NCBI GenBank assembly: GCA_947330515.1
Contig: CAMZOE010000035.1
Coordinates: 1-34,414 of the forward strand
Direction of reading: 5' to 3'
Length of the DNA stretch: 34,414 nt
Source: an uncultured Mycoplasmataceae bacterium
Lineage (GTDB): Bacteria > Bacillota_I > Bacilli_A > Mycoplasmatales > Hepatoplasmataceae
The position numbers were made by a program, and so were the translations under genes. Positions 12,680 to 34,414 of this stretch are shown here, one piece after another. Position 1 is the stretch's first letter. Each line of letters opens with the position of its first letter. The notes beneath the pieces are model-generated. The model saw only the letters and a program-made list of their open reading frames with translations, was not told the origin of the DNA and ran no database searches.

Positions 12680-12709
12680 ATGACATTTTTTTTCTTTTAA
12701 TATTATAAT
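12680..12709 (+). promoter_or_regulatory. Promoter of the three-repeat surface protein gene
   Basis: ATGACA (12680-12685, five of six to TTGACA) and TATAAT (12704-12709) are 18 bases apart. Transcription from here would give a leader of about 140 nt before ATG 12855. Confidence 0.6.
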
Positions 12710-12738
12710 GGTATTGTTTTAGAGTTATTTATAAAAAA

Positions 12739-12852
12739 ATGTTTAAGAGTGATAAAAATAAAATACTAAAACAAAATAGCGATTTTTATATTATTAATTT
12801 TATTTGTAAAGTAGTTTCGGTTTTTATATGTGAAAATATTAAGATAGGATAA
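12739..12852 (+). CDS. Possible 37-codon leader peptide
   Basis: An ATG-initiated frame of 37 codons (MFKSDKNKILKQNSDF…) spans most of the leader and its TAA (12850-12852) ends two bases before the ATG of the surface protein gene. It has no clear SD and its composition could be chance in such AT-rich DNA. If translated, it would couple to or regulate the downstream gene. It resembles no known leader peptide. Confidence 0.25.
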   Translation: MFKSDKNKILKQNSDFYIINFICKVVSVFICENIKIG

Positions 12853-12854
12853 AA

Positions 12855-14336
12855 ATGGAAACAACAGAAAACAGTTCAAATTCTTCTTCATTAAAAACAA
12901 TTTTTGCAGTAGTGTTAAGTCTTTTATTATTGGGTTTAACAACATTGATGATAGTTTTAATGACTAAAAATGAGGACACAGATACAATTAAAACCTTTCA
13001 ATATGTAGAAAAAATAGATGGAAGAAATAATTATACACTTGATGTAGAAATGAATTTAACTAATAATAGTTATAGATATAAATTTTCATCTCCTTATGAT
13101 GTTTATAAACAAGAAGCTATTACTGATAGTGAAATAGAATCAGAAGACATTGGTAATTATACTTATAATAATCATAAATATGATGAAAGTTATAAAGTTA
13201 ATGTAAAAGATGAATTTACTAATTGAATGATTTCATCAAGTGATGAAATTAAATTTGATCAAACTGATTTTTTTCTAGATATTAATCATAATGGTTATTT
13301 TCTAGAAGAGGTTATTGATCATTCAACAGACAAACACACAAGTATCGATGAAAGATTTAAAGAAGAACAATTTTTCCAAGCAACACTAAATTTTAATGAA
13401 CAAAGTTTCATTGTTGATGATACTAGTGAAAAAAATATTAAATCTTTTGAATATGTGCAAACAATAAATAATGCTATTGCATATGTTATTGATGTTGAAA
13501 TGAATGTAACAACTAATTCATATAGATATAAAGTAACATCATTAGTTGATATTTATAATAAAAAAGCAGATGATGGTAATATACAAGGAAAATCATTATC
13601 CTTCAATGATAAAATATTTTTTTATTTAAAATATGATGAAAAAGAAATAGTTACTTTTAATTCAGAATTTAGTGAATGAAAAGAATCTGATAAAGATATT
13701 CTTTATTATGATCAAGATGATTTCTTTATTGATATCAATAAAGATAATAGTTATCAAGAACATATTCTTAATAAAATAACTAAAAAAACAATGAACGTTA
13801 ATCAAAGAATTCAAGAAAAACAATCTCTTCATGCAACTTTAAATTTTCAAGATCAAACCTTTAATGTTAGTGATATTTCAACAAATCCAATTAAAACTTT
13901 TGAATACGTTAAAAAAACTAATGATAATATTGATTATATTGTTGATTTTCAAGTTGATACAATCGTTAATGCTTATCGTTATAAAGTTTCAACAACATCA
14001 ACAATATATAAAGAAGGAGCAGAAACAGAAACTATTAATCAATTTATTGAAGGAAATTTAGTTCATACTCAATATCTATATGATAGTGAAAAAGAGATTA
14101 TTCTTAATGAAGGATATTCTCAATGAGTAACTTCTAAAAAAAATGTTATAGAATATAATGCTAATTTTTATATTGATCTTAACGATAATAATGCTTATAA
14201 AGATACAATCTTAAATACTGAAACTCATGAAATTAAAAAAATTGATGAGAGAAGTACAGAAAAACAATCACTTAATGCAACTTATAATTTTAGCAGTAGA
14301 ACACTAAAAATTAATGATGAAGAGATTAAACTTTAA
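12855..14336 (+). CDS. Membrane-anchored surface protein with three ~150-aa repeats
   Basis: The product has 493 residues, read through TGA codons at 13224, 13677 and 14124. A short polar N-terminus is followed by one hydrophobic segment (about 15-36, KTIFAVVLSLLLLGLTTLMI), probably an uncleaved anchor with the rest outside; there is no lipobox Cys. Three repeats follow at 45-194, 195-345 and 346-493. Each opens IK(T/S)F(Q/E)YV, contains NSYRYK (or NAYRYK) plus I/VYK, then a Trp followed by YDQxxFFIDIN, and closes with EKQSLHATLNFxxQTFxV. The repeats are diverged in sequence but constant in length, as expected of a folded beta-rich domain. I know no matching family. The downstream gene (14560) is a two-repeat paralogue. 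SD: AGGA before ATG 12855. Confidence 0.85.
12987..14333 (+). repeat. Three tandem coding repeats of about 450 bp
   Basis: Units at 12987-13436, 13437-13889 and 13890-14333 encode the three homologous domains. Landmarks recur in order in each: IK(T/S)F, N(S/A)YRYK, a Trp-containing stretch, and the ATLNF or ATYNF near the end. Confidence 0.85.
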
Positions 14337-14360
14337 AGTTTTTTAAAAAAAATCTTTTTA

Positions 14361-14394
14361 AAAAAAATCAACTATTTTATGGTTGATTTTTTTT
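14361..14394 (+). terminator. Rho-independent terminator
   Basis: AAAATCAAC (14364-14372) pairs with GTTGATTTT (14382-14390), extended by A/T pairs, and ends in a run of eight T. It lies 24 bases after the stop of the three-repeat gene. Confidence 0.85.
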
Positions 14395-14403
14395 ATAAAC
14401 TAT

Positions 14404-14456
14404 TATAATTAATTTATGGGTTAAGATAATGCTTTATTTTTTCTAAAAAAGCATTA
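14404..14456 (+). promoter_or_regulatory. Putative -10 box and leader hairpin of the two-repeat gene
   Basis: TATAAT at 14404-14409 sits in the same TATTATAAT context as the upstream gene's promoter. A 9-bp inverted repeat, TAATGCTTT (14427-14435) with AAAGCATTA (14448-14456), follows close to the expected transcript start. It has no U-run, so it is not a terminator. A second hairpin (14519-14527 with 14533-14541) lies 18 bases before the ATG. Confidence 0.4.
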
Positions 14457-14559
14457 CTTAAAATTATTTGTTTTATTGATGTTTTTTTATTTTCTTATTA
14501 ATTTTATTGTTGATTACATTTTATATTAAAAAAATATAAAACAAAAAAGAGAGAATCAA

Positions 14560-15600
14560 ATGAATAAAGAAAGAAATAATAGTCGTTGAGCCAAAGGACT
14601 ATTAATCACTGTTACACTAATAGTAGTTTTCGCACTACTGGCTGCAGTGGGAATTAAAATTTATCAAAATAATAAAAAAGCGAATAATGATATTAAAACC
14701 TTTGAATATACAAAAGTACATGATGGAATAGAAGATTATACTATTGACGTTGAAATGAATACAGAAAACAATAGTTATAGATATAAAGTATCATCAGAAT
14801 TTACTATTTATAGAGAAAGCGCAATCATTAAACAACAACTTAATCTTATTGAATCTACAGATACTGAAAAAATTTTTGCTTTAGAATATGATGAAGAGTT
14901 TAAAATTGAATTAAATCAAGAATTTTCTAATTGGATTGTTGCTGATGATAATGTTGTAACTTATGATCAAGGTGAATTTTTTATTGATGAAAATAATAAT
15001 ACCGTTTTCTATCAATACATTTATAAATTAAATACTAATGCTAAAGTAGAAAAAGTTGATGAATTGGTTAATGAAGAACAATCACTTCATGCTACTTTAA
15101 ATTTTCAAAATCAAACCTTTACTGTTGCAGAAAAACCTTTTTCATATATTAAAACTTTTGAATACACAAAAGTAACTAATGGAATAGAAGATTATACTAT
15201 TGATGTTGAAATTAATACAAAAAACAATAGTTATAGATATAAAGTATCATCAGAATTTAATATTTATAGTTCGATTGATGATCAAACTTTCACTGTTATA
15301 GAAAATACAGATATTAAAAAAAGTTTCGCTTTTGGATATAATGAAAAATTTAATATAGAACTAAATCAAGAATTTTCTAGCTGAATTATCGCTAAGGATA
15401 ATATTGTAACTTATGATCAAAGTAAATTTTTTGTTGATGAAAATAATAATACTTTTTTTAAACAATACATTTATGTTTTAAATGATCATAAAGAAACAAT
15501 AATTAATGAAGTACCTAACGAAAGACAATCACTTCATGTTTCACTAAATTTTAGTAGTAGAACATTAACAATTAATGATGAAGTTTTATTTCCTTTATAA
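14560..15600 (+). CDS. Membrane-anchored surface protein with two ~150-aa repeats
   Basis: The product has 346 residues from ATG 14560, preceded by a GAGAG purine SD; TGA at 14587 and 15382 are Trp. The N-terminus is basic (NKERNNSRWAKG), then one hydrophobic helix (about 13-34), then a lysine-rich linker. Repeats cover 45-196 and 197-346, and the first repeat begins at residue 45 exactly as in the upstream paralogue. The two units are much more alike than those of the upstream gene: both have a GIEDYTIDVE block, NNSYRYKVSSEF and EKFNIELNQEFS-like stretches, so their duplication is recent or homogenised. The equivalent Trp is TGG in unit 1 (14935 region) and TGA in unit 2 (15382). Function unknown; a cell-surface role is inferred from the anchor and repeats. 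Confidence 0.85.
14692..15597 (+). repeat. Two tandem coding repeats of about 450 bp
   Basis: Units are 14692-15147 and 15148-15597. The first 130 bases of each are almost identical at the nucleotide level, for example around 14730-14800 and 15183-15256. Confidence 0.85.
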
Positions 15601-15630
15601 AGTTAATTATTTTATAAAATAATAATTTAA

Positions 15631-15662
15631 AAATAGCCAAAATTATTTTGGTTATTTTTTTT
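15631..15662 (+). terminator. Rho-independent terminator
   Basis: AAATAGCCAAAA (15631-15642) pairs with TTTTGGTTATTT (15646-15657) with one G-U pair, ending in eight T. It closes the two-repeat gene. Confidence 0.8.
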
Positions 15663-15945: not shown

Positions 15946-18462
15946 ATGAAAAAAAAATTATTTTCATTTATGTTCTTTACAACGGTTGTGTCAAGTGTTT
16001 TTACACCAACGTTTTTATCTTTAGAAACTAAGGTTTTTAATAATAAAAAAGATCAAGAACTCAATAATGAAAACTTAATTCCAATGGAATGAAAAAATGA
16101 AATGGATACCATTTTAAGAAGTCCAGAAAAAGATTTTTCTGGAAAATATGTAGATTATTTTCATAATAGTAAAACATATTATTTAAAACAAGATATTGAT
16201 TATTCTGAAATGAATAAAACAAAAAATATTTACGATGGAACTTCAAATATTAAACTTATATCTGGTTCTACTTTTAATGGTAATAATCACCAAATTAAAA
16301 ACAGATATGATAAAGCTAATTTTCAAAGTTTTATTAGTTCCAATGAAAAAGCATTTGAAGAATTTGGTCGTGGAAATGTTAATATATTAAATAAATTATT
16401 TTTATTTGATAAATTAGAAAATCAAGATTTAGTTAATTTAACTTTTGATAATTCTCCTTTTGTAGTTAATCAAATCAAAGGAACTTCAAAATTACATAAT
16501 ATTAATTTAAAGGATATTGATATTTCTCATTTATCATTATCATTAAAAAGTGATAAAACAACTACTAATAATTTAAATCCAATTAGTAAACAAAATACTT
16601 TTGCTTTACCTCTTCTTGCATTTGAGATGGGATCGAATACAGTTGTTGAAAATTCTTACTATGATAATATTAATTTTTCAGATAATAATTTTTCTTTAAC
16701 TCAAGCAAATGGTGGTTGGAAAACAAATGTTGGTTTTAATGTAACATTATCACTTGTTATGTATGTTACTTCAGATGAAACAGTTACTTCAATTCCTGGA
16801 GTTTTTGAAAACTTAGAATATAACCATTGAACAATTGCCAATAATAATGTTGAAAGTAATACTTGGAAATCTAATTATAAAAACGAAAATATAATTACTT
16901 TTACTCCATTTTTTATTGGTGGTAATGCTTTTGGAACATATCAATATTTTCTTCCTAACAATAATAGTCATTCTTCTTTAAATCATAATTTAGGTGATGC
17001 TAAAGAAAACACTATTAATATTAACAATATTTACTTTAACGATTTTAATGTAAATAATAATAGTGGAAAAATTAAAGATACTGGTACAGCAACAGAAGGT
17101 TTTAATTTTACAATTATTCCTATGTTTAATGATGATAATTTAATTTTTCTTTCATATAAAACTATTTTATTAGGTAATAAAATGAATTTTAATGAAAATG
17201 ATATAAAAGCAATTAATTTTATTACTGATGAAACTAATACTATTTTATCTTCATCAAATTTAATGTATTCAGAAAGTATTTCTTCTGGATTAAAAAAAGT
17301 AATGAATGATTACTGAGATGAAATAAGTGACGAAAACTTATCAACAAATAAATTCAAAGAATTTAATTATGATGCTTCATACTGAAATGTTAATAATGGT
17401 GAAGAATTAACTTTAAAAACTGATAATAATTTTTCAATTGATTCAAATGTTTTTATGGGAGAAGATAATAATGCATATATTAATGTTCATTCATTAACAA
17501 ATAATTTTATTCCTACATACTTTGAATATGATTTAAGTAAAAAAACTTCATCATCTTCTACTTGAACATCAGTTAAAAGCGATAGTTTTGATAAAACAAA
17601 AGGAATTGATTTATTTGAAAATAATTTTGATTATGCTATTCCTTTAAGTCTTTTTTATTTTACTTCTGATGATCAATTAAAACTTGAGATAAAAACTAGT
17701 CAAAGTGAAGATAGTTTTGTTTACACAACAGAAATTAATACTAATCAAGAAAACTTTTTAATTTATGATTTTACTAATAGCTATGATTCTTATAAAGATG
17801 AATTAACATATTCATTTTCAGTTACAGATACTTTTAAACAAATAAAAAGTTGAGAACTTGCTGCTTATCAAAAAAATAAAAAACTTTTTGTTGGAGAAGG
17901 TAATGGTTTTAATGGCGATACAACAAATCAAGATAAAGAGTTCTCTTCAACAATAAAAATTAACAATCCTAATGATTTATATTTCGTATTTTCAATTACT
18001 TATGATGTTCATGGTGTAGAAAAAACAACAACTTTAACTCCTAAAAATCACAACCAATTTAGAATTTTAGAAGAAAATTTTATTGATAATTTCCTTTCAA
18101 AACCGTTTACTTGAATGCATTATTATTGATGAGTAATCTTAATTATCATCTTATTAATCATTTTTATTATCTTTATTCTTTTAACATTGTTAAAATTAAG
18201 AAAAAATAAATCAGAAATGAATGATGTAGAAGATGCAATGGCACTTTGAGTTCAAGAAAATCAATATAATTATGAAGGTACAAAAATGTTTAGAGAATAC
18301 ATTAATTTAGAAAATTATCTAGATGAAGATGTTTCATATGAAAATTATGATGATTATGAATATGACGTATATGAAGAAGATAATTATAGTGATTATGATG
18401 AAGATAGCTACAATGATTATGATGAAGATAGCTACAACGATTATGAAGGAGAATTTGAATAA
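15946..18462 (+). CDS. A1: type-A single-pass surface protein of the paired array
   Basis: The product has 838 residues with TGA as Trp throughout. A signal peptide (MKKKLFSFMFFTTVVSSVFT, cleavage near 25-30, no lipobox) precedes the family block YVDYF…SKTYYLKQDIDY (about 68-90). Beta-helix-like strands follow: FNGNNHQIKNRYD near 110, LVNLTFDNSPFVV, LHNINLKDIDIS. Family signatures ITFTPFFIGG and PMFNDD (392-397) come next, then a beta-sandwich-like region. The C-terminus has the juxtamembrane motif WMHYYWWV (723-730), one TM helix (about 728-749), the stretch EMNDVEDAMALW and an acidic Tyr-rich tail of about 88 residues. Topology is therefore extracellular N-domain and cytosolic tail. The SD is weak. 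Its TAA overlaps the B1 ATG (TAATG). The family is not recognised; an adhesin or receptor role is inferred. Confidence 0.85.
18397..18444 (+). repeat. 24-bp tandem repeat in the A1 tail
   Basis: Two adjacent 24-bp units (18397-18420 and 18421-18444) differ at one base and encode DEDSYNDY twice in the cytosolic tail. In-frame unit length allows tail-length change without breaking the frame. Confidence 0.85.
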
Positions 18463-20669
18463 TGAAATTTAATAAATGACTATCAGCAACATTTGCAAGT
18501 GCAATTATTGTTACTAGTGGTATTGTTAGTGGAGGAAATGCATTATTACGTAGTAATCAAAATAATTATTCTCTTCAACAAAATTTTTCTTCTAATAATG
18601 TAATGAGTGGAAAAGAATTTGTTAATGCAGTAAATGATGCTTCAAGTAAAAAAATAGATTATAATCTTGAAATGGATGTTGATCTTTCTGATTTAACGGT
18701 TAGCGAAAAAATTAATCTTAACAATATTACCTTAAATGGAAACGGACATAAAATTTATGATCGTAATCTTAAAGGTAAAAATGATTTTGCAATTAGAAAC
18801 GAAGCTAATGAAAAAGATCTATATCTTTTTGAAAGTGTTAATAATGCAACGATTAAAAATCTTACTTTTGATAATGTTATTTTTCCTATTTACACTTTAA
18901 ATAAATCTCATTTATTTAATGTTAATTTTGAAAATACAGCATATGAAAATATGAGTTTTACTATTTATGCTTTTCAAGAAAACTTTAGTGAAGTAGGTTC
19001 ACAAATAGATACTGCAACAATTGGATTATTTATTCTTAGAATGAATAATTCTACTTTGGAAAATGTTGAAATTAAAAATATTTCTTTTAGTAATAATAAA
19101 ATTGAAAATACAGTTGGAACATCTGCAAGAGAAAAAACTGTAATTGTTGCACCAATTGGTTACATCAAAGAACGACTTGTAGGAACAAACTAACCAAACA
19201 CTTTTAAAAATATTTCTGTTCAAGATATTGAATTTAAAAACAATGCTTTTGAAGGTAGCAAATTATTTAATTGAGAAACCACTGGTGGAAAAGGAAGTTC
19301 TACTGATTACGGAAATCTTTCTTCAATCGTATTAACTCCAACAATTGGTGGAGTAATTGGTTACAAAGAAAATGATTCTTATGCTAAAGTAATTAGTGAT
19401 TATGTTGTTATTGATAATATTACTTTTGATAGTAATAGTTCAAACATCACTTTTAATAAAATTTATGGAACGGGATTAGGACAAGGAATCTTTTATAGTC
19501 TTGGACCAGTAATAAATGTCGGAAATCAAATGCTATTAAGTAATACTTATCTTTTTAATCTTAATGTTGTAATAGATGAAACTGATAGCACACTTTTTAA
19601 TACTGGATTTATAACTACGCTTAATAATTATAAAGATTCTTCAAAAGCTTTTTATCAATCAGATAAAAACTATTATTATCAAGAAGATGAACTTAAAGAT
19701 TTCTTGGGGTTTTCAACAATTATGTTTCAAGAATCAAATTATGAAACAATGATTGAAAATATAAATCTTGGTAATGAAAGCACTAACATTAAAAGCATTT
19801 GAGATCAAAATATATGATCTATAGATAATGTTGGTTCTTCTGATACAAAAGCAATAAATTATCATAAAAATCCATGAATTGATAGTGAATTAGGATATGA
19901 ATATACTGAAAAAAATACTTCAATAAAAGGAGAATTTAGAACTGGAGCATATACAAAAAATAATCAATGAAATATTAAAGTTGTTGATGATAATAATACT
20001 CCACAAACATTTTTTGATAAAAAAAATATTACTCCAAATGAAACAATTAAAGCTAAATTTAAAACCGATGAAATTTTAGATCCAACAAGAAACATTATTT
20101 TACAAGCAAATAGTAACGGGGTTAACTTAAATACTATTCTTGATACAACTGCAATTGTTCCTAAAATTACTAATATTTCTAATCAACTTTCTGAAGGTGA
20201 TAATAGAAAACTAGCGTTAAAAGTTGATTTTGTTAATGATTTTAATTACACAATGAAATTTCAAATTAAACTTTTCAGAAAACAAAAATTAATTGATAAA
20301 GCTGATAAAACATTAACAGAAGCAGATTTCAATGAAAATGAATTGATTTTTGAAACATCAGCAACGTTTGATCCTTCTGAATCATTTGATAAATATTATT
20401 ATGATGTTAATATTACTTTCATTGATAGTAATCAACAAGAACAAACTATTTATGATAGTATTATTAATTTTGATACTGAAGGAAGTTTAGTTTCTTTCTC
20501 TCATTATAAAAAAGGAACAAATTGAATTATTATTGTTTCTATAATTCTTTTATTAATTCTTTTAATTTTATTAATTCTTTTAATTTTATTCCTTCTAAAA
20601 AGAAGAAAAAACAAAGCAGAAATGATAAGAGTTTATGAAGAAGTAACTGGATTACAATTAGTAGAATAA
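18462..20669 (+). pseudogene. B1: type-B partner protein with an in-frame TAA
   Basis: ATG 18462 overlaps the A1 stop by one base. The frame encodes 735 codons homologous to B2 and B3 from end to end, but codon 244 (19191-19193) is TAA. The following residues PNTFKNISVQDIEF align with B3 NPTNIFKNIYIDNIIF, so nothing else is lost and no frameshift exists; CAA to TAA is the simplest cause. Domains are: signal peptide (1-~28), ITLNGNGHKIYDRNL, NATIKNLTFDNV, PTIGGVIGYKENDSYAK, GQGIFYSLG, KNPWIDS, YYYDVNITF, TM about 689-712, and tail RRKNK with EMIRVYEEVTGLQLVE. If the TAA is real, the product is a 243-residue secreted fragment without its membrane anchor. A sequencing error or readthrough remains possible. 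Confidence 0.75.
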
Positions 20670-20706
20670 TAAATTTTCCTTAATTTTTTCTACAAAATAA
20701 TAAACA

Positions 20707-20738
20707 AAAAAAATAAGTCCGTAAGAACTTATTTTTTT
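20707..20738 (+). terminator. Terminator of cassette 1
   Basis: AAAAAAATAAGT (20707-20718) pairs perfectly with ACTTATTTTTTT (20727-20738), loop CCGTAAGA, with the T run built into the right arm. It lies 37 bases after the B1 stop. Confidence 0.85.
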
Positions 20739-20779
20739 ATTTTCTCGAAAAAGTTTCAAGCGTTCATTTATTTAATTGT

Positions 20780-20805
20780 TATAATAAAATAGTATTTAAT
20801 ATTTT
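20780..20805 (+). promoter_or_regulatory. -10 box and inverted repeat before A2
   Basis: TATAAT (20780-20785) is directly followed by AAAATA (20786-20791) with TATTTT (20800-20805). No convincing -35 box was found. The inverted repeat ends 39 bases before ATG 20845, a position similar to those before A1, A3 and A4; this is the weakest of the four stems. Confidence 0.4.
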
Positions 20806-20844
20806 GGTTTGTTAAATAACAAAAAAATGGAAAAAAAGGAAAAT

Positions 20845-23421
20845 ATGAAAAAAAAACTATTTTCGTTTTTTTTCTTTGCGGTAATTATTTTGGGAGCAAG
20901 TTCTCCAATGATTGATTATTCTTTTACGAGAAGATTCAACAAAGAAAAAAAACTTAATACAAATGAAAATGATCCCTTAGCCTGGAAAAGCGAAATGGAT
21001 GCTATTTATGATAATCCTAGTAGTGATTATAATGGTAATTTTGTTGATTACTTTTCAGATAGTAAAACTTACTATTTAAAAGAAGATATAAATTATCAAT
21101 CAACTATTGATAGTAATATAACTATTTATGGTGAAAATGCAAATATTAATTTAGTTGCTAATTCTACTTTTAATGGTGATAACCATGAGATTAAAGATCG
21201 CTATAATCAAAGTGAATTAGAAACTTTTATTAATGAAAATTATCAAATCTTTGAAGATTTTAGTGAAAATAAAAGCGATCTTTTAAATAAAATATTTTTA
21301 TTTAATCTTTTTGATAATGAAAAAGTTATTAATTTAAATTTTAATAATTCTCCTTTTATAGTCAATGAGACTAAAGGAAAAACATTAATGCATAATGTTA
21401 ATCTAATAAATATAAAAATTGAAGAATTAAATTTAAAAATTAATGCAATTGATACTAAAGGGATTAGTAGTAAACAAAATACCTTTGGATTACCTCTTTT
21501 TGGATTTAAAATTGGCGCTAACACAACATTAGAAAATTCTTTTTTTAAAGAAATTAGTTTTAGTGGAAATACAATTAATTTTACTCAAAGCGATGAAACA
21601 AGAGTTTTAGGATTAAATTTTGTTCTTTCGCTTTTTATGTATATTTCTTCAGATAACACAGTTACTTCTATTCCTTTGAATTTTAGAAATTTAGAATATA
21701 GTAATTGATTTATTAGTGATAATAAATTTACTACAGATAAATGAGATTCAAATTATATTAATAAAAAAACAATGACTTTTACCCCTTTCTTTATTGGGGG
21801 AGCAAGTTTTCGTTCTGATGATTATTATCTTGCTAATAAAGAAACTAACAGTGAAAAAGTAAATTCTTTTAAAGAAAACACTGTTATTGTAAGTAATATT
21901 TTTTTCAATAATTTTGAAATTAAAAGAAATGATTTTGATGGAGAATTAAGTTTTAATTTTATTCTTCTTCCGATGTTTAATGATGATGATTTAGTTTATC
22001 TTTCTTTTAAAACTATTTTACTCAATAAAATAACAATTGATTCTGGTGAACTTTATGGTGATAACTATATTACAAGATCAGTAAACACTATTTTAACTTT
22101 TTCTAATTTAATTTATAGTGAAGAAATATCAGACAATCTAATCAACGAAATTAGAGACTCTTGAAACAAAAAAAGCAAAGATGTTATTACTTCTAATGAA
22201 TTTAAAGAGTTTAATTTTTCATCCTCATATTGAGATGTAACTGATGGAAAAGATTTAGAATTATTGACAACAAGTAAAATTAAAATCAATCCTAATATTA
22301 TTATGGGGGTAGATAATAAACCATATTTACAAGTTGTTTCTGAGATTAATAACTATTTTTTAACTTATTTAAAATATAGTGTAGTTAAATTTAGCGATGG
22401 TGGAGAACCAGAAACTATTTTAAATAAAGAGTTTTCTGAAAACGATGATCTTTCTTTTGTTCAAAAAAACTTTGATCTTGAGTTTCCTCTTGATGATAGT
22501 TTAAGTTTTGAACAAAATGATAATATTGAAATTGATATTTGATTAAGTAGAAATGAATCTAGTAAACTTACTTACACAATTAATACTAATCAAATAAATT
22601 TCTTAATTTATGATTTTACTAATGATTATAACTCTGAAACAAATGAATTAAATTATTCTTTTTCAATTAGTGATATATTTCATCAAATTGATAGTTGAAA
22701 ACTTACTGCATATCATAAAAGTAAAATCTTATTTGAAGTATCAAATAAAGATAAAAATAATACTAATGAATTATTAAGTGGTGATATAAAAAATCTTAAA
22801 CTTAAAAATAATACTAATTTATATTTTATCTTTGAAGTTACTTTTTTAATTCATGATAAAAAAGAAACAAAAGCTTTGCTTCCTGTAAAAAATTCTAATT
22901 TCAGAATTGGTACTATTAATTATATTGATAAATTCGTTGATAAAAAAAATTCATGAATTCACTATAATTGATGAGTGCTTTTAATTCTTTTAATTTTCCT
23001 TATTTTCCTTATTATTATTCTTTTAGTATTAATGAAACTGAAAAAAAATAGTAAAGAAATGCATGAAGTTGAACATGCAATGGCAATTTGAGCAGAAGAG
23101 CATCAAGATGATGCAGCTGGAATTCAATTGTTTGAAGAGTTTCTTGAAAATAATTATCACAGAAATGATTATGAAGATAACGATTCCAGTTTTAATGAAG
23201 AAGATATAAATGAAATTCAATATCATTCGAATTACAATGAAGAACAAGAAGAATATTTCAGAGAAGAAATTGTTCATAATGATGAGTATTATTCAGAAGA
23301 TGATTTTGAAGATTATACAGAAGAGTATAATGAGTATTATTCAGAAGATGATTATGATGATGAGTATAGTAATCAAGAAATAAATGAGTTTGAAAATGAT
23401 GATATTGAGGAAGGTGAATAA
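20845..23421 (+). CDS. A2: type-A single-pass surface protein of the paired array
   Basis: The product has 858 residues. ATG 20845 is preferred over ATG 20827 because AAAGGA lies five bases before it and a normal signal peptide (MKKKLFSFFFFAVIILGASS) follows. Family blocks are in the usual order: the conserved Trp before the YVDYF-like block (here TGG, in A1 and A3 TGA), NFVDYFSDSKTYYLKEDI, STFNGDNHEIKDRY, NLNFNNSPFIVN, MTFTPFFIGG and LLPMFNDDDLVYLSFKTILL. The C-terminus has WIHYNWWV (704-711), a TM helix (about 709-730), the EMHEVEHAMAIW stretch and a very acidic tail of about 128 residues rich in Tyr, Glu and Asp. One base separates its stop from B2, and a GAGGAAGG SD for B2 lies inside its tail codons. 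Function unknown. Confidence 0.85.
23282..23353 (+). repeat. Direct repeat in the A2 tail
   Basis: An exact 24-bp repeat occurs at 23282-23305 and 23330-23353, 48 bases (16 codons) apart, encoding EYYSEDD twice in the acidic tail. Confidence 0.8.
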
Positions 23422-23422
23422 G

Positions 23423-25606
23423 ATGAAAAAAAGTAAAAATTTTTTTGTTCTTGGAATTCTTGCAACAACTTTTTTTAGTGGTTTGTTTTTTAATGGATTT
23501 CAGTCACTTAAAAAACAGGAAGAAATTCAGTTAGCTATTAATAATTCTCCTGCAAAAGATTTTGTAGATGATTTAAATAATATAGCTCCAGGAGAGACTT
23601 ATAATTTACAAGAAGATATTGATCTTTCTGAGTTAACAGTTGAAGATAACATTAATTTTGATGGAATTACTTTAAATGGTAATGGTCACAAGATTTATAA
23701 TCGCACCCTTCAAAATAAAAAAGATTTTGATTTTGGCACTGAAGCAGAAAGTAAACCTTATTATTTTTTTCAAACGATAGAAAATTCCACAATTAAAAAT
23801 TTAACTTTCGATAATGTTCTTTTTCCTTTTTACGATTTAGATTATTGTACATTAATTAATGTTAATTTTGAAAATACTATCTATGAAGATATTAACTTTA
23901 CAATTGATAGTTTTGAAGAAAATTTTAGTGAAGATAAAAGAATTCATATTAATACTTCAACTATTGGACTTTTTATTTTAAAAACAGAAAATTCTGTTTT
24001 TAATAAAATGGAAATTAAAAATCTTAAGTTTCAAAATAATACTATTACTAATAGTGATAGTAATGACGATCAAGAAGCAACAATTATGATTTCAACAATA
24101 GGATATATTAAAGAAAAAAATGGTGCAGGTTCAAAAACACAAACAAACTTATTTACTAATATTTATCTTAATGAGATTCTTTTTGAAAATAATAATTTTA
24201 CTGGGTTGCCATTATTCGATTGAGAAAAATATTCAAAAGATAGTCCTACAGATTATGGTTCACAATCTTCAATTGTTCTTTCACCCACTATTGGAGGAAT
24301 TATTGGATGAAAGAACTTAGATTCTTATGCAAAAGTAACTAGTAATTATGTAATTCTTGATGATATTACTTTTGCTAATAATATTTCTACCATTACATCT
24401 AATAAAATTTTTGATACAGGAAATGGTCAAGGAATTTTTTATAGTTTAGGTTCAGTAATAAATGTTGGTGCTCAACTAACTATAAACAATACTTATCTTT
24501 TTAATTTTAATGTTATTAATGATTCAAGTGTTGTTGGAGATACACAATTTCTTACAGGATTTATAACTACATTAAATAATTATGTTGAACCTTCAAAAGC
24601 GTTTATTAAAGCAGATTGTAATTACTTTTATCAAGAAAATCTTCTTGAAGAATTTTTAGGTTTTTCTACTATTATTTTTCAACATTCAACCTATCAAACA
24701 ATGGTTAATAACATTAATTTTGGAACAACAACTAATGGTGAAAATTGAGATGAAAATCTTTGATCAAAAACAATGATAAATCTTTTTGATGAAAAAGGTG
24801 AACAAACAACGATTGAAAAAATCTTGTATCATAAAAATCCATGAATTGATAGTATAGATGGTTTTCAATATAAAGAAAAGAAAACTTCAATAGAGGGTTA
24901 TTTTAGAATAGGTGCTTTTGAAAACAAAGATTGAGAAGTAACTATTACTACTAATAATAATGGAATAATTTATCATAATAAAAATTTATCTATTGGTAAA
25001 AAAACAAAAGCAAATTTTCTTACTAAAGAATTACTCGATCCAACAGATACACCACAATTAAATTTTGTAAGTGGTGATTCGGAAGTTAATAATATTTTAG
25101 ATACTACTGAAATAGTACCTAAAATTACTAAAGTTACTAATAACAAAACAGTAGATAATAAAGTTAATTTAAATATTGATTTTTCTAATAATTTTAATTT
25201 TTTTATTAAAATGAGTATTAATCTTTATAAAAAACAAAATTTAATTGAAAAGAAAGATTTTACTTCTTTAGATCAAAATGGTGAATTAAGCTTTATTACC
25301 AATAAAACCTTTGATGAAAATGAAGATTGAAGTCAGTATTATTATGATATTAACATTGAATTTACTGATATAAATAATCAAAATCAAAAAATTTATGATG
25401 CGATTATTAATTATGATAATGAAAGTTTAATTAGTTTTGCACATTATAAAGAAAAAATAAGTTGATGAGTTATTCTTATAATTGTTATTCTTATTTTCTT
25501 ATTAATTTTCTTAATTTTATTAATAGTTTTCTTTATTAAAAGAAGAAAAAATAAAATTCAAATGATCGAACTTTATGAAGAAGTTACTGGAATTCAACTA
25601 GTTTAA
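23423..25606 (+). CDS. B2: type-B single-pass surface protein, partner of A2
   Basis: The product has 727 residues; ATG 23423 is preferred over in-frame upstream starts because it follows GAGGAAGG and begins the signal peptide MKKSKNFFVLGILATTFFSG. The reading frame is intact through several TGA Trp codons. Ordered features are: DFVDDLNNIAPGETYNLQ with DIDLSEL, ITLNGNGHKIYNRTL (about 82-96), NSTIKNLTFDNVLFPFYDL and NVNFENTIYEDINF as beta-helix-like rungs; GLFILKTENS; PTIGGIIGW with DSYAK; GQGIFYSLGSVINVG; KNPWIDS; YYYDINIEF near the membrane; TM about 682-705; and a basic stop followed by QMIELYEEVTGIQLV. Unlike B1 it is uninterrupted. Two cysteines occur (in DYCTL and KADCNYF), unusual in this Cys-poor family. 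Binding target unknown. Confidence 0.85.
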
Positions 25607-25640
25607 ATATTAGTATGGATAAAATTCCAATTGATAAATA

Positions 25641-25668
25641 AAAATAAGCTCATATGAGCTTATTTTTT
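25641..25668 (+). terminator. Terminator of cassette 2
   Basis: AAAATAAGCTC (25641-25651) and GAGCTTATTTT (25656-25666) form a perfect 11-bp stem with loop ATAT and a T run reaching 25668. Confidence 0.9.
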
Positions 25669-25901
25669 CATTTTTCTAAAAAAACAAAATTTTAATAATT
25701 TTGTATAGATATGAATAGAATAAAAATAAATTATCATCAAAATTAATTTTAAATAATAAAAAAATAATTGGAAACTATTATGTTTTTGAACAATTAATCA
25801 ACCATTATACTAAAAATATTTTTTTTATAAATTTAATTTATAAATATTTTTATAAAACAATGAAATAATAGTCAAATATAATTAGCTATTTTTTTCTTAG
25901 T

Positions 25902-25944
25902 TATAATTGTTTTGTATTTGGTAATTGGTTTAAAATTACCAAAT
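25902..25944 (+). promoter_or_regulatory. -10 box and inverted repeat before A3
   Basis: TATAAT (25902-25907) is followed eight bases later by a perfect 11-bp inverted repeat, ATTTGGTAATT (25916-25926) with AATTACCAAAT (25934-25944). The stem would begin near the transcript 5' end and stops 33 bases before ATG 25978. The rest of the gap 25669-25901 is AT-rich, with a palindromic TTTATAAAT/ATTTATAAA near 25825-25844 and no gene. Confidence 0.5.
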
Positions 25945-25977
25945 AAAATAAAGTAAAAAATATTATTTAAGGAAATT

Positions 25978-28704
25978 ATGAATAAAAAAATTTTTTCTTT
26001 CTTGTTTTCTACTGTAATTGTTTTGGGGATTTCTAATCCATTATTTGGTTATTCTTTAATAAATGATAGTAATCAAGAAAGTACAAAAGAGAGTGATGAA
26101 TATACTCCACTTAAGTGAAAACAAGAGATGGACGATATTCTTACAAATGAAAGTGATTATTCAGGGGAATATGTAGATTATTCTCAAAGTAGTCAAACAT
26201 ACTATTTAAAACAAGATATTGATTATACATCAATGATAGAAAATAAATATTCTATTTATGATGAAAAAAATGTTGGTATTAATTTAATTGATGGTTCAAC
26301 ATTTAATGGAAACAATCATCAAATTAAAAATAGGTACGATCAAGATCAATTACAAGTATTTATGGAAGATAACGATAGCGTATTTAAAAGTTTTAAAACG
26401 GGCGAAGATACTAAGGTAAATGATTTATATCTTTTTTCTCCAATAAATGATGAAAAAATATTAAACTTAACTTTTAATAATTCTCCTTTTGTCATTAGTA
26501 AAACAACTAATGAAACTTTATTACATAATGTTAATTTAGAAAATATTAATATTTCAAATTTAGAATTGAGTTTATCTTCAAGCGATGATACTCCTTTAGA
26601 AAAACAAAATTCTTTTTCTATTGGACTACTTGCTTTTGAATTGAGTGCTAATACTATTTTAGAAAATTCTTCTTTTAATAATATTGTTTTTTCTGATAAT
26701 AAGTTTACTCTTGATCAAACAAAAACTGGTGGAAAAGTGGGATTAAACATTACTCTGTCATTAGTGAATTTCATTTCTTCAACAAACACAATTACTTTTA
26801 TTCCTATAAGATTTAGTGAATTAGAATATAATAATTGAACTATTGAAAATAATATTATTAGTACAGATAAATGAGTAGATACTTTTGAAAATCATAATGC
26901 AATTACTTTTACACCATTTTTTATTGGGGGAGCTAATTTCTTAAGTGACGGTTTTGAAAAAGAAATTTCTGAAGAAAAGAATAATAGTTTTTCTAGTAAT
27001 GTAATAAATGGAACAAAAGAAAACAATGTTATTATTAATGATATTTATTTTAATCATTTTACAATTAAAAATAATATTGGAATCTTAAATGAAAAAGAAA
27101 CAAATGCATTTAATTTCATTTTATTACCAATGTTTAACGATGATGATATTATTTATATCTCTTATAAAACAATTATTATTAATAATATGGATTTTGAAAG
27201 TGATAATCTTTATGCAGAAAACTTTATTACTGTTTCTTCTAATACTATTACCTCATATTCTAATTTAGTTTATTCAGATAATACTTCTCCAGAATTAAAA
27301 GCAAATATTTCTGATTATTGAGAAGAAAAAACTACTACAACAATTAATTCTAAACAATTTAAGGAATCAAATTTTTCTAATTATTTTTGAAATACTAATG
27401 ATGGAGAAGAATTAACTTTAAAAAAAGAAGTAAAATTTGAAATAAATTCTAATGTTATTATTGGAAAAAATAATAAACCATTTTTAGAAGTATCTTCTCA
27501 AACAAATAATTTTTATTCTACTTACTTTCAATATACTATAAGTAAAAGTATTGATCAAGAAAACTGAGAAATAATTACTAATAAAGAAATTGAAGATGAA
27601 CTTTCGCTAGTTTTTTTAAGAAAAAATTTTAAGGAATTAATATCAATTTATTCATTAGATGTAAATTCTGATGATTATTTAAAAGTAGATATAAAGTTAA
27701 GTAAAGGTGATGATAATAAAAAATTAGAATATACTTTTGAAGTTAATACAAATAAAGAAAATTTCATGATTTCTAATTTTTCAAGTACTTATAATTTGGA
27801 AGAAAAAAAATTTCGATATGGTTTCATAATTGATGATATTTTTGGACAAATAAAAGGAATAAAACTAAGTGCATATCAAAAAAATAAATTATTATTTAAA
27901 GAACAATATTCTAAAGATAAAATCAACATAATTAGTAATGATGAAGATGTTTTAATTGATAAAAACGTAGGAGATATTGATATTCAAAATCATAATAATT
28001 TATATTTTGTTTTTCAAGTTACTTTTATGATTCACAACAGTGAACAAACTAAAATTTTAACACAAAATACAGAAAATTTTAAAATTGGTAATGTTAATTT
28101 TATTGATAATTTTAATAGTGAAAAAATTAAATGAGCACATTATAATTGATGAGTAATTCTAGTGATTGTATTGCTTATTGTATTATTAATCATTATGTTT
28201 TTAATAACTTTCTTTATTAAAAAAAATAAAGATAAAATTAATGATGTTGAACTAGAGATGGCAATTTGATCAAAAAGTCATCAAGATAATAAAACGGGAA
28301 TTCAAATTTTTAACAAATATTTAAATCAAAATATTGAACCATCTGTTGTTGAAGAACAACAACAAATTACTAAAGAAGAAGTTTCTTATCATAATGAAAA
28401 CTACCACAATGATCATCAAGAAGAAGAAAAAGATTATAATGATCTTCAAGACAACAAAAACTACTACAATGATCTTCAAGAAACAGAAAAAAAATATAAT
28501 AATTTTCAAGAAGAAGAAAATGATGATGAAGATCTTCAAGACAACAAAAACTACTACAACGATCTTCAAGATAATGAAAACTTCTATGATGAACTTCAAG
28601 AAAATAAAAATGAAGTTAGTGACAATAATAATGATGAAAGTGAATTAATAAATAATAATGAAAATGAAACAAGCAAAAAAGATAAAAATAACAAAGAAGG
28701 ATAG
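25978..28704 (+). CDS. A3: type-A single-pass surface protein with repeat-rich tail
   Basis: This is the longest A protein at 908 residues. ATG 25978 follows AAGGAA at ideal spacing and starts the signal peptide MNKKIFSFLFSTVIVLGIS. The ectodomain contains GEYVDYSQSSQTYYLKQDID, STFNGNNHQIKNRYD, NLTFNNSPFVIS, LHNVNLENINIS, ITFTPFFIGG and LLPMFNDDDIIYISYKT. The juxtamembrane motif is WAHYNWWV (719-726), followed by a TM helix (about 724-748) and INDVELEMAIW. The cytosolic tail of about 160 residues is Asn/Asp/Glu/Gln-rich and has seven 10-residue repeats built on YNDLQ. It ends TAG 28702-28704, one base before the B3 ATG, with an AGAAGGA SD for B3 in its last codons. Function unknown. Confidence 0.85.
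28405..28614 (+). repeat. Seven 30-bp tandem coding repeats in the A3 tail
   Basis: The Gln codon of each unit recurs every 30 bases from 28417 to 28597. Units read HNDHQEEEKD, YNDLQDNKNY, YNDLQETEKK, YNNFQEEEND, DEDLQDNKNY, YNDLQDNENF and YDELQENKNE. Two units share a near-identical 30-bp core. This is a coding minisatellite and not a CRISPR: there are no unique spacers. Confidence 0.9.
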
Positions 28705-28705
28705 A

Positions 28706-30922
28706 ATGAAAAAAATAATTAAAACATTTTCATATAGTATTGCTTCAATTGTCATTTTTATGAGTGTAGCGAATATTTCTTGAATAGAACAAAAACGCGA
28801 CCATATTATTCAAAAAAATAACACAACTAATTCAGAAGCTAAGGATTTTATTGATGATTTAAATAACTTATCACCTGGTGACACCTATGAATTAAAAAGT
28901 GATATAGATTTAAGTGATTTAAGTGATTTAGATACTATTGAATTACTTGATAATATTACCTTAAATGGTAATGGACATAAGATTTATAATCGTACTCTTG
29001 AAGATAAAAAGGACTTTACTTTAGAAAATGATTCTAAAGAATTATATTTTTTTAAAGAAATTAAAAATTCAATTATTAACAATCTTACTTTTGAAAATGT
29101 TCTATTTCCAATTTATGATTTATTTGAATCATCATTAGTTAATGTTAATTTTAAAAATACTTCATATGAAGAAATGCAATTTACTATTAATAAATTTGAT
29201 AAGTTATTTGAAGAAAATGACGGGATTATTCATAGTTTTACTATTGGATTATTTCTTTTAAAAATGGAAAATTCAACTATTAATAATTTTACAGCAGAAA
29301 ATATTAGCTTTAATAATAATGTTATTGATAATCATGAGGAAACTCTAGATATTGAAAAAAATATTATTGTATCAATGATTGGTTATGTTGATGAAATTAT
29401 TGATAGCGAATCAGATAACCCAACTAATATTTTTAAAAATATTTATATTGATAATATCATTTTTAGTGACAACTTTTTCATTGGAACATCATTATATGAT
29501 TGAACTGAAGAGACTTCTATTGATTATGGTAGTCTTTCTTCAATTATTCTTACACCAACTATTGGAGGAATAGTTGGTTACAAAGAAAATGATTCATATG
29601 CTAAATTAACAACAGATTTTACTGTTATCGATAATATTACCTTTGCTAATAATAAATCTGAAATTACAAATAACACCACCTCATTAGAAACCGGAAGTGG
29701 TCAAGGAATCTTTTATAGTTTAGGATCAGTTGTAAATGTTGGAACACAATTAACTTTCAGTAATGCTTATGTTTTTAATCTTAATATTGAACAAGATGAA
29801 GCATTAAATACCTTACTACTTACTGGATTTATGACTACTCTTAATAATTATGAAGGAATTTCAAAAGCGTTTACTAAAACTAAAGAAGCTTACTTTTATC
29901 AAGAAGATTTATTAAATGAGTTTTTAGGATTTTCAAACATTCTTTATCAAAGTTCTACCTATAATACAATGATTGAAAATATTAATATTGGAACAATTGA
30001 TAGCGAACAAAATTCTAATGAAGTAGTAGAACTTTGAGATGAAAATGTTTGAGAAAAACAAAAAGAACTTACTTCTGTTGATAAAGCAGAAAAAATAGTT
30101 TATCATAATACTCCATGAATTGATAGTCAAGAAAATTTTGATTATCAAAAAGATAAAATAACAATTAACGGAAAATTTAGAAAAGGTTCATTTCAAGAAG
30201 ATAAATGAAATATCACTATTGAAAGTGAAGATACAACTTTTTTCACTAAAGAAAATCTTCTTCCTAATGAAGAAGTTAAGATAAATTTTAAAACTGATGA
30301 ACTTTTAAATCCGAATAAAAATATCTTTTTAAATTTTGTTTCAGGAGAGATGATTGATTTTAAAACTATTTTTGATACTAGTAATATTGTTCCTAAAATT
30401 ACTAATGTTACTAATCAATGAAATATTATTAAAACAGGTAAAATTGAAAAACCAAAAAAACTAAAATTAATAATTAATTTTGAAAATACTTTTAATTATC
30501 AAATAAATTTTGTCATCAAACTTTTTAATGGTCAAAAGTTAGTTGAAAAAGTTGATAAAACTTTAATTGATAGTGTTGCAGAAAAACAAATAACGTTCAT
30601 TTCTACAACCTTATTTCCTGAGATAAAAACTTTTGATAATTATTATTATGATATTAATATTAGTTTTATCAATCAAAATAATGTAGAAGAAAGAATTTAT
30701 GACAACATTATTAATTACGATAACGATAATAGTTTGATTAGTTATCAACACTACAAAGAGAAAAAAAGTAGTAATTGAATTATTATTGTAAGTATAATAG
30801 TTTTAATCTTGCTCTTATTCTTTGTTATTTATCTTATTTTTTTCTTTGTTAAAAGAAAAAATAATAAAACAGAAATGATTAAAGCTTACGGAGATGTTAC
30901 AGGGATTCAATTAACTGAATAA
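28706..30922 (+). CDS. B3: type-B single-pass surface protein, partner of A3
   Basis: The product has 738 residues, starting one base after the A3 stop. The signal/anchor is MKKIIKTFSYSIASIVIFMS. Ordered blocks are: DFIDDLNNLSPGDTYELK (about 49-66), a duplicated LSDLSDL, ITLNGNGHKIYNRTL, LTFENVLFPIYDL, NVNFKNTSYEEMQF, PTIGGIVGYKENDSYAK, GQGIFYSLGSVVNVG, then TPWIDS in place of KNPWIDS and YYYDINISF. The TM helix is about 692-715, followed by KRKNNK and EMIKAYGDVTGIQLTE. All TGA codons fall at conserved Trp positions. No enzymatic motif is visible. Its partner relation to A3 is inferred from the one-base spacing and the constant A-then-B order. Confidence 0.85.
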
Positions 30923-30930
30923 TTTAAAAA

Positions 30931-30966
30931 AATAAAAACCATTCTTTAAAAAGAATGGTTTTTATT
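30931..30966 (+). terminator. Terminator of cassette 3
   Basis: AATAAAAACCATTCTTT (30931-30947) pairs with AAAGAATGGTTTTTATT (30950-30966), giving a long stem with a T-rich right arm, directly after the B3 stop. Confidence 0.85.
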
Positions 30967-30993
30967 AATTAATTTGATATTTAAAAATATTGG

Positions 30994-31029
30994 TATAATA
31001 ATAATAGATTAAAAAGTAAAGTTTTTAAT
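30994..31029 (+). promoter_or_regulatory. -10 box and inverted repeat before A4
   Basis: TATAAT (30994-30999), with a possible but closely spaced TTGATA (30974-30979), is followed after eight bases by ATTAAAAA (31008-31015) and TTTTTAAT (31022-31029). The repeat ends 38 bases before the A4 start, matching the layout of A2 and A3. Confidence 0.4.
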
Positions 31030-31067
31030 TAAAAAAAGTAAGCAATTTTTTTAGAAAGAAGGTAATT

Positions 31068-33566
31068 TTGAAAAATAAATATTTTTCATTATTATTCTCA
31101 TCAGTGATTATTTTAGGTACCTTTTCCGGTACTGTAGTTAATCGTGAGTTTAATAATTTAACAACCTCTTCTGAACATAGAAGTTCAGGAAAAAATAGAG
31201 AGTTTGATCCATTAACCTGGAAAAAGGAAATGGCAAAAATTAAAGAAAATGACAACTATCATCGAAATATAGATTTTAAAGGTGAATATGTTGATTATTT
31301 TAATAATAGTAAAACATACTATTTAAAACAAGATATCGATTACGCTCCATTAGTTGATAGCGGAATGGATATTTACAATAGAAATACATCATCAATTGTT
31401 TTAGTTGATGGTTCAACATTTAATGGGAATAACCATCAAATTAAAAATAGATATGATCGTTCAGAATTGGAACATTTTATCCAATATAATCCAACAGTAT
31501 TTGAATCTTTTAGTAATTCAACTTATTACAGTGCTGAAACATCTTTATATCTTTTTGATCTTGTTAATAATGTAACTGTTGAAAACTTAACTTTCAACAA
31601 TTCTCCTTTTGTAACAGGACTAGCATCAGGAAAATCAGTTTTCCATAATGTTAATTTAGTAAATATTGATATCTCCGGATTATCAATTAAAGCAGCACCA
31701 TTTTCTTTTAATGGTTATACTAAACAAAATTCATTTGATATTTCCTTGTTTGCAAGGGAATTTGATTCAAATGTGGTTTTAGAAAATTCATATTTTGATA
31801 ATATTAATATTTCTGATAATCATTTCATTTTAAATCAAAATCCTTCATATGATTTAGGACTAAGTGTAGATTTTTCCTTAGTTACTTTAATCTCAGACAA
31901 ATATACAGTAGATGCTCCAGTAAGGTTTGAAAATCTTGAGTATCAAAACTGAACTATTAGAGATAATACTGTTTCAGTAAAAAACTGAAAAGCTGATTTT
32001 ATCAATAAAAACCTTATTACTTTTTCACCATTTTTTGTTGGTGGATCACGTTTTTCATATGAAAGATATCATAAAGCAACTCACAATAATAATGCTTTAG
32101 ATTCTAAAAGTAATTCAGTTTTTGAAACTAAAATATTGGTTCAAAACATTTATTTTAGTGATTTCGTTTTCGAAAACAACAGAGGAGTTCATGTTAACAC
32201 TTCTGAATTAGATGAAGGGATTAATCTTTCTCTTTTACCTATGTTTAACGATGATGGAATAATTGAAATGAATTTTCAAACTATCTTGATTAATAACATT
32301 AATATTTCAAAAAGTAGTCAAATTACTTTTGATAATTATGTTACTAGCTGAGCAAACACTACTATAAGTTTTGGAGATTTAATGTTTTTTGATAACATTG
32401 CTCAAACACTTGCAACATTACTTGAAAAATTACCAACTCCTTGAGTTTCAAAAGCAAGTGCATTAATTACAGATCAAGTTTTCAAAGAAAGATTCTTTTC
32501 GAGTGAATATTGAAATACTTTTCAGGATCAAGAATTAACTTTAAAAAAAGAACCATGATTTGCTATTAATAAAACTATTAAATTAGATGAAAATAAAAAT
32601 CCAGCGCTAGTAGCTACTTCAACTCTTGGTAACTTTAAACCAACATATTTTAAATATGTTGTTAGTTCAAGCAATAATAATAAAACTTGAAAAATTCTTC
32701 AAGAAAAAGAATTTGATGAAGAAACAATTAAAGGTTCAATATGAGAACATAGTTTTTTAAATAAATATTTTGATATTAGTTCTTTAGATATTAATAGTGA
32801 TGATTACTTAAAAGTAGATATCTTTTGAGGAAGAGATGATAAAAAAATCTTTAATATTAATACTAATCAACCAAACTTTTTTGTTTATGATTTTACAAAT
32901 AACTATGATGCAACAAAACAAGAATTTAATTATCATTTTATTGTTAATAATCATCTTAGACAACTTAATTCTTTAGAATTATCATTAGATGATTCTTCAA
33001 CAAACATTTTCCAAACAACTATTGTTGTTGATCAAAATGAAGATATTCAAGAGATAAATGGTTCAATGAGTGTGGTAGTTACACCACCAAAAACTTCAAT
33101 ATTTACTTTTACTGCTAACTATACTGCATTTGGGGAACACTATTCATATTCTTTATCACCAAAAAATGGTAGAAATTTTGAATTTGGATTTGGAGAAAAC
33201 TATATCAAAAATTTTCAAACAATTGATTTTCCAATGCCAACAGGAATTACTCAAAAAACAAAAATTATTATTGAAAGTATTTCTTTAGTAATATTAATTA
33301 TCATTCTTGTGATTATTTTATTTGTTGTTTTTAAAATTAATAAAAATAAACAAGAAATTAATAAACTAGAAGAAGCAATGTTAAGTTGATCGCAAGTTAA
33401 CGGAGGAAATAACAAAGCTTCACAAGAATTTATTGATAATCAAGAAGATGAATTTGATTTTAATTATGAAGAAGAAAACTTTGATTACGAAGAAGAAAAT
33501 AGTTATCTTGAAGATGATTTATATGAAGAAGATTATTATCAAGATGAAGAATTTGGGGCATACTAA
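31068..33566 (+). CDS. A4: divergent type-A surface protein, TTG start
   Basis: The product has 832 residues. The start is TTG 31068, five bases after AAGAAGG; no ATG gives the signal peptide (KNKYFSLLFSSVIILGTFSG). Conserved blocks are YVDYFNNSKTYYLKQDIDY, STFNGNNHQIKNRYD, NLTFNNSPFVTG, ITFSPFFVGG and LLPMFNDDG. It is the most divergent A protein: it lacks the WxHYNWWV motif before its TM helix (about 736-755), has a different membrane-proximal ectodomain (SVVVTPPKTSIFTFTANY…) and an extra proline-containing stretch near residues 435-455. The tail starts with EINKLEEAMLSW, equivalent to the EM..VE.AMA.W of the others, and then about 60 acidic residues with EEENFDYEEEN-type repeats. Its TAA overlaps the B4 ATG by one base (TAATG). 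Confidence 0.83.
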
Positions 33567-34414
33567 TGAAAAAAATTAAAAAAACATTATCACTATCTTT
33601 AGTGACTTTAATGTTAGCTGCTGGCTCAGCAGGAGTGATAAACTCTTATGTTAATGAAACTAATAGTTTAAGTTCATTAACAAATGGTGAAAATAGTATT
33701 CCAGCAACTGATTTTGTAAATGATTTAAATAACTTATCACCTGGTGGTACATATGAACTAACTGAAGATATTAATCTTTCTAGTTTAACTGCAGAAGATA
33801 GAATTAATATTAATGGTATTACCTTAAATGGTAATGGACATAGAATTTATAATCGTGTTTTAAACGGTAATAAAACCTTTAGCATTGATAGTAAAGAGAG
33901 TGAATTTTATTTATTTGAATCTATTCAAGATTCAACTATCAACAACTTAATTTTTGATGATGTTATCTTTCCAATTTATGATTTAAATCATTCGGAATTA
34001 AATAATGTTGTTTTCCAAAATACAGATTATGTTGGAATGAATTTCAATATCAATCATTTTGAAGAAATTTTTCAAGAAGGTAGTTCTCGTCCTTTAAATG
34101 TAGCTACAATTGGATTAGTTATTAATAAAATGGAGGATTCAACTATTGAAGATATTAATATTAAAGATATCTCCTTTAGCGATAATGTTATCGATAATAA
34201 AACACCAACTAAACCTCCTTATCCTTACTATATGGAAGAAAAAACTATTATTGTTTCTTCAATTGGGTACATTAAAGAAAATAGAAATGAAAACAGAAGA
34301 GTAAAAAATATTATTGATAATATTGATATTGAAAATATTGCTTTTGATAATAATTCTTTTATTGGAAATAAATTAAATGATTTATCAGCTCCTACTACTA
34401 TAGATTATGGAAAT
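33566..34414 (+). CDS. B4: type-B surface protein, partner of A4 (3' truncated by window edge)
   Basis: The frame is open from ATG 33566 to the window end, 283 codons, with no stop. The signal peptide MKKIKKTLSLSLVTLMLAAG is followed by DFVNDLNNLSPGGTYELTED, INLSSLTAEDRININGIT, LNGNGHRIYNRVLNGNK and LIFDDVIFPIYDLNHSELNN, the same order as in B1-B3. The region aligned to the B1 premature stop reads ENRNENRRVKNIIDNIDIEN and is open, so the B1 TAA is specific to that copy. The rest, including the TM helix and the VTGIQL tail, would lie beyond the window. Confidence 0.85.
   Translation, partial: MKKIKKTLSLSLVTLMLAAGSAGVINSYVNETNSLSSLTNGENSIPATDFVNDLNNLSPGGTYELTEDINLSSLTAEDRININGITLNGNGHRIYNRVLNGNKTFSIDSKESEFYLFESIQDSTINNLIFDDVIFPIYDLNHSELNNVVFQNTDYVGMNFNINHFEEIFQEGSSRPLNVATIGLVINKMEDSTIEDINIKDISFSDNVIDNKTPTKPPYPYYMEEKTIIVSSIGYIKENRNENRRVKNIIDNIDIENIAFDNNSFIGNKLNDLSAPTTIDYGN

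Follow-up and report, generated by a model that had tools for sequence, protein, structure and literature searches.

Four copies of a two-gene cassette, A followed by B, stand in tandem in the stretch of DNA analysed here, and the genome from which it comes holds at least seven such pairs. The products are predicted surface proteins that match no known family. A and B prove to be diverged homologues of each other, and the pairs were copied as units. We give about an even chance to reading the cassettes as two-gene operons that encode cognate paired membrane adhesins or receptors and were amplified as units.

Results

Gene pairs with an operon-like layout

The stretch, referred to below as the window, is the entire contig C35 (34,414 bases). 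The source genome comprises 832,759 bases in 85 contigs, is 84% complete and reads TGA as tryptophan. Using translation table 4, eight genes were found on the plus strand between 15946 and 34414 in the strict order A1-B1-A2-B2-A3-B3-A4-B4 (Table 1). This is the alternation described in the original prediction. In each window pair the two genes abut or overlap, and hairpins with T-runs are located 3' of B1, B2 and B3. Hence, with this spacing and a hairpin after each of B1 to B3, every pair appears to form a two-gene operon of its own.

Table 1. Coordinates of the A and B genes and of terminator-like hairpins in the window
Feature	Position	Strand	Description
A1	15946..18462	+	838 aa; signal peptide, parallel beta-helix, two FN3/Ig-like domains, TM helix about 730-748, acidic Tyr-rich cytosolic tail (domains predicted)
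B1	18462..20669	+	In-frame TAA at 19191-19193; ATG overlaps A1 stop codon
Terminator-like hairpin 3' of B1	20707..20738	+	z -3.5; under threshold of consensus scan
A2	20845..23421	+	858 aa from ATG 20845
B2	23423..25606	+	727 aa from ATG 23423; begins 1 base past A2 stop codon
Terminator-like hairpin 3' of B2	25640..25667	+	
A3	25978..28704	+	908 aa
B3	28706..30922	+	738 aa from ATG 28706; begins 1 base past A3 stop codon
Terminator-like hairpin 3' of B3	30931..30966	+	
A4	31068..33566	+	832 aa, TTG start; A copy with most divergence in window
B4	33566..34414	+	First 283 codons; ATG overlaps A4 stop codon; gene cut by contig end, rest on C55

Two of the B genes are not intact in the window. 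The stop in B1 is codon 244, and the reading frame is intact on either side of it. This TAA may have arisen recently by nonsense mutation, be polymorphic, or reflect an error in the assembly. For B4, the window end and contig C55 share an exact 141-base overlap, and the gene completed in this way encodes 747 amino acids. Directly 3' of B4 on C55 is a gene for a beta-rich protein with a signal peptide (L028, 1-1530; 510 amino acids), which runs off the contig. By eye this protein resembles A and B, and it has no match to either the A or the B profile.

Searches with A and B profiles identified further pairs in the source genome: A5-B5-A6-B6 on contig C80 and A7-B7 on contig C81. The original count of four is right for the window and rises to at least seven genome-wide. 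A is directly 5' of B in all seven of these close-family pairs, with spacing from a 4-base overlap (ATGA-type) to about 12 bases. An additional adjacent pair on contig C46, A'-B', is very diverged and retains a one-base overlap. Contig C72 carries an A-type gene with no B, immediately 5' of the apparent start of a 16S rRNA gene.

On the 5' side of the cassettes is a conserved chromosomal stretch with FakA-like, PlsX-type, RNase III, SMC, FtsY and Ffh genes. A DUF4238 protein (1675-2718, minus strand, E 6e-26) flanks conserved chromosomal genes. Between the chromosomal stretch and A1, the window also encodes two small neighbouring proteins, at 12855-14336 and 14560-15600, that have an N-terminal TM helix followed by three and two repeats, respectively, of an unrecognised domain of ~150 residues. 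These gave a weak PirA-like match (E 1e-4, under the cut-off).

Sequence relationship between A and B

A and B had been taken for two separate unrecognised families, a view that profile comparison overturns. In profile searches, A matched B1 (E 4e-11 and E 9e-14) and B matched A3. Using hhalign, A was aligned with B over 351 columns (98.9% probability, E 2e-17) and with Hepatoplasma B over 598 columns reaching the TM helix (97.4%, E 1e-11). In the A-B alignments, STFNGNNH of A is placed on TLNGNGH of B, and PFF(I/V)GG of A coincides with PTIGG of B or lies a few residues away from it. Given these nearly coincident positions, PFF(I/V)GG and PTIGG are probably two versions of one site. Judged by sequence, A and B are ancient paralogues that form two branches of one family, and the cassette is a tandem pair. 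Both branches have a predicted beta-helix with NGN(G/N)H-like and P(F/T)(F/I)(I/V)GG-like motifs, a beta-sandwich pair and a C-terminal TM helix.

PMFNDD and PFF(I/V)GG, originally assigned to every A, are present in A1 to A4; A5 on C80 has PLFNDD. PTIGG and VTG(I/L)QL were similarly assigned to every complete B. Both occur in B1 to B3, although in B1 PTIGG and VTGLQL sit past the in-frame stop. Completed B4 keeps PTIGG but has the C-terminus ...AYELSIFNS, without VTG(I/L)QL.

Predicted protein architecture

In hydropathy plots, all members have a hydrophobic N-terminus and one strong TM helix close to the C-terminus, with a tail beyond it. These features agree with the signal peptide, TM helix and cytosolic tail expected of each product; for A1, B1 and B6 the N-terminus is under a simple cut-off. 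There is almost no cysteine in A or B and, hence, no lipobox pattern. The A tails comprise 73-168 residues, have a net charge of -11 to -44 and are mostly Tyr-rich. The B tails comprise about 20 residues and, in six of seven copies, have a VTG(I/L)(Q/E)L-like end.

A 530-aa surface protein on contig C67 (L063, 2857-4449) has a different ectodomain joined to an A-like TM helix and an acidic Tyr-rich tail, which hints at an intracellular docking tail that it shares with the A proteins. In the first protein of the diverged pair on C46 (L062, 3428-5575), part of the cytosolic tail weakly resembles DnaJ (Pfam E 0.03).

The AlphaFold model of B has a mean pLDDT of 73, often exceeding 90 in the beta-helix. 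From the strand pattern, the model confidence and Foldseek matches, we read the predicted fold as a parallel beta-helix (~70-420), two beta-sandwich domains and a TM helix. The best PDB neighbours of this model in Foldseek are FN3 pairs. In BFVD, phage pre-neck appendage proteins and tailspikes are among the top viral neighbours, with low global TM-scores. The A model is of low confidence (pLDDT 52, four sequences) and has the same domain order; its C-terminal part matches FN3 pairs. Among the paralogues, the beta-helix is the most conserved of the extracellular parts, and the FN3-like region and A tail are the least conserved. Such a pattern is not what one would expect of a fast-evolving tip that binds the host.

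None of the Pfam or NCBIfam families scored above its cut-off with A or B. The pentapeptide repeat family PF13599 has a best score of 20.4 bits against a cut-off of 38, which probably arises from the periodicity of the beta-helix.

Duplication and divergence of the pairs

The A paralogues share 33-50% identity and the B paralogues 38-60%, and these values suggest that the pair duplications happened long ago. The A and B distance matrices are congruent (Mantel r=0.94, exact p=0.002; a fit this good was reached by 11 of 5,040 permutations). When pair 4, which has long branches, is left out, the values are r=0.73 and p=0.007. Since the matrices agree, the pairs were copied as units; in the A and B trees themselves, single branches are weakly supported. 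The longest exact DNA match between any two copies is 44 bases. Hence, nothing points to recent gene conversion among the copies or to their shuffling, and we rejected both.

Distribution in and beyond the Hepatoplasmataceae

Ten Hepatoplasmataceae genomes were compared, among which the window genome forms its own genus. B-type genes are present in three Hepatoplasma genomes, each without A, and the Hepatoplasma proteins align with B in hhalign (99.9%, E 2e-37). The B proteins of Ca. Hepatoplasma (H. crinochetorum, H. scabrum) resemble those of the window in being full-length, with a signal peptide, beta-helix, beta-sandwich region and TM helix. They differ in having no A partner and a very short basic tail. 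In Ca. Hepatoplasma, two phage tail-protein-like genes and a small gene related to them share an operon-like cluster with the B gene, which comes last.

The two phage tail-protein-like genes that adjoin the Hepatoplasma B-type genes lie in L041 at 7494-12311 (genome G023), in L042 at 8895-13651 (genome G017) and in L061 at 10851-15653 (genome G011). For most, phrog_2248 is matched with E 1e-11 to 1e-13. One tail-protein-like gene has an extra C-terminal domain that is common to the small neighbouring gene. Genes of this kind occur in exactly the three B-bearing Hepatoplasma genomes and are absent from the other seven genomes of the family. Published work on H. crinochetorum finds no phage genes (PMC3942034).

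Outside the family, nothing convincing was found with the A profile (198 genomes of the order) or the B profile (298 genomes); the matches were short and mostly in the TM region. In named-genome contigs, A had no match, and a search with Hepatoplasma B recovered only two Hepatoplasma records, Ca. Hepatoplasma crinochetorum Ps and Ca. H. scabrum Ps-JP, a result that places the window in the Hepatoplasmataceae. Viral contigs and phage records contained no A or B match. Because of this, and of the chromosomal neighbourhood, we rejected a phage origin for A and B.

Adjacent A-B homologues, which the original prediction had proposed to seek in other mollicutes, were, among the genomes searched, seen only in the window genome. 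The same prediction held that amplification of the pair argues for joint function, and that homologues usually occurring apart would speak against this. The consistent A-then-B order of the pairs and the congruent matrices favour the argument. The lone B-type genes of the three Hepatoplasma genomes and the lone A-type gene of the window genome count against joint function, and the claim is weakened by them.

Comparison with known adhesins

In Mycoplasma pneumoniae, P1 and P40/P90 are paralogous products of neighbouring operon genes. Both combine a large ectodomain with a C-terminal TM helix and a cytosolic tail, and the two form a heterodimer (PMC7560827, PMC11984735). The adhesion complex of M. 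pneumoniae and M. genitalium binds sialylated glycans (PMC7560827, PMC11984735). With P1-P40/P90 and with P140/P110 of M. genitalium (the Nap adhesion complex), A and B have in common that neighbouring genes of what appears to be one operon encode paralogous type-I membrane proteins. The two systems also share a large beta-rich ectodomain, a membrane-proximal domain, a single C-terminal TM helix and a cytosolic tail. However, the head of Nap is a seven-bladed beta-propeller and that of A and B a predicted beta-helix. GxxxG was not found in the TM helices of A1-A7 or B1-B7, unlike those of Nap, and the seven full operon copies also set A and B apart.

No match to P1_N, MgpC, other adhesin models or solved P1, P110 and P140 chains was obtained for A or B, even at E 10. 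Nap proteins were not among the 50 best PDB structure matches of the two models, a result that is less firm for A, whose model is weak. The source genome gave no P1_N or EAGR-box match, to which we attach little weight since the controls were also silent. Hence, the design is common to both systems, but fold, sequence and TM motif differ; we rejected membership of the MgPa/P1 (Nap) family and kept it as a working analogy. The original prediction knew of no described mollicute family with this design. The A/B family is indeed new by sequence, but a paired surface adhesin design is already known in M. pneumoniae.

The giant Ig-like/beta-sandwich ORFs of Hepatoplasmataceae (PMC10928387) offer a second comparison. 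They are found in the same bacterial family and, like A and B, are lineage-specific surface-type proteins with Ig-like domains in tandem clusters. In contrast to these internally repetitive single ORFs, A and B are of moderate size, non-repetitive and paired, with a beta-helix head.

Discussion

The reading of the cassettes as operons for cognate paired adhesins or receptors would work as follows. One ancestor, with a signal peptide, a right-handed parallel beta-helix, two FN3/Ig-like stalk domains and a TM helix, would have given rise to A and B. A would then have diverged to a long, acidic, mostly Tyr-rich cytosolic tail, and B to a short one. Made from one message by touching or overlapping genes, A and B would most likely form a complex, and they are probably displayed side by side at the surface. 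The beta-helix heads would project from the wall-less cell and may bind ligands of the host epithelium or mucus, while the A tail may dock to something inside the cell. Copied at least seven times, with divergence of the copies, the operon would supply the cell with a standing repertoire of complexes for attachment or for use as receptors.

Hepatoplasmataceae inhabit crustacean digestive organs, and their giant Ig-like proteins have been proposed as adhesins (PMC10928387, PMC9636832). Because these bacteria coat gut surfaces of crustaceans, and other surface proteins of the family are proposed adhesins, attachment is most likely the role of A and B. Neither sequence nor fold names a ligand. 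Besides the genes of either type that stand alone, this reading has against it the stronger conservation of the beta-helix than of the FN3-like region and A tail, the TM helices free of GxxxG, and the low confidence of the A model.

Several other explanations were weighed. A and B could be functionally independent paralogous surface proteins, in which case the pair persists only as a duplicated block with a common promoter. The homology of A and B and the genes of each type found alone fit this well. So do the congruent distances, which block duplication accounts for by itself; congruent trees are expected from it whether the proteins bind or not. We nevertheless consider independence rather unlikely, since order and spacing are kept in 7/7 pairs despite 33-60% identity and, the B1 stop excepted, no member has been lost from any pair. 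Even the very diverged pair on C46 has kept its genes overlapping.

A different function is also conceivable for the heads. Polysaccharide lyases and tailspikes usually fold as a right-handed beta-helix, and tailspike and pre-neck appendage proteins are what BFVD returned. Hence, the heads might be carbohydrate-active enzymes, or tailspike-like glycan-binding depolymerases, acting on host mucus or dietary polysaccharides. With low global TM-scores and no enzyme family of Pfam or NCBIfam, we regard this as improbable. Finally, multicopy surface-protein loci of mollicutes often vary, and the cassettes could be an antigenic- or phase-variation repertoire whose copies are switched or recombined. 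An A9 tract after the ATG of A1, A2 and A7 and the premature stop in B1 are in line with such a repertoire. However, the tract encodes a common MKKK start in an AT-rich genome, and the break in B1 is a single in-frame stop codon, not slippage. The paralogues are also old, share at most 44 bases of exact match, and each copy has its own apparent terminator. Accordingly, variation strikes us as very improbable.

Returning to paired adhesins or receptors, a more specific version can be put forward tentatively. The two proteins of each pair would form an obligate heterodimer that has a ligand of its own, and all these dimers would be linked by their acidic A tails to one intracellular partner. The result would be at least seven two-chain receptors derived from one ancestral beta-helix/FN3 protein. 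If this is true, the paired-adhesin design known from M. pneumoniae would have evolved independently a second time. For the question of how crustacean gut symbionts without a cell wall attach to their host, the A/B operons are concrete candidates. They suggest that the bicistronic design of paralogous membrane proteins found in the M. pneumoniae adhesion complex re-arose with an unrelated fold, and that amplification, at least seven-fold, followed in an otherwise strongly reduced genome.
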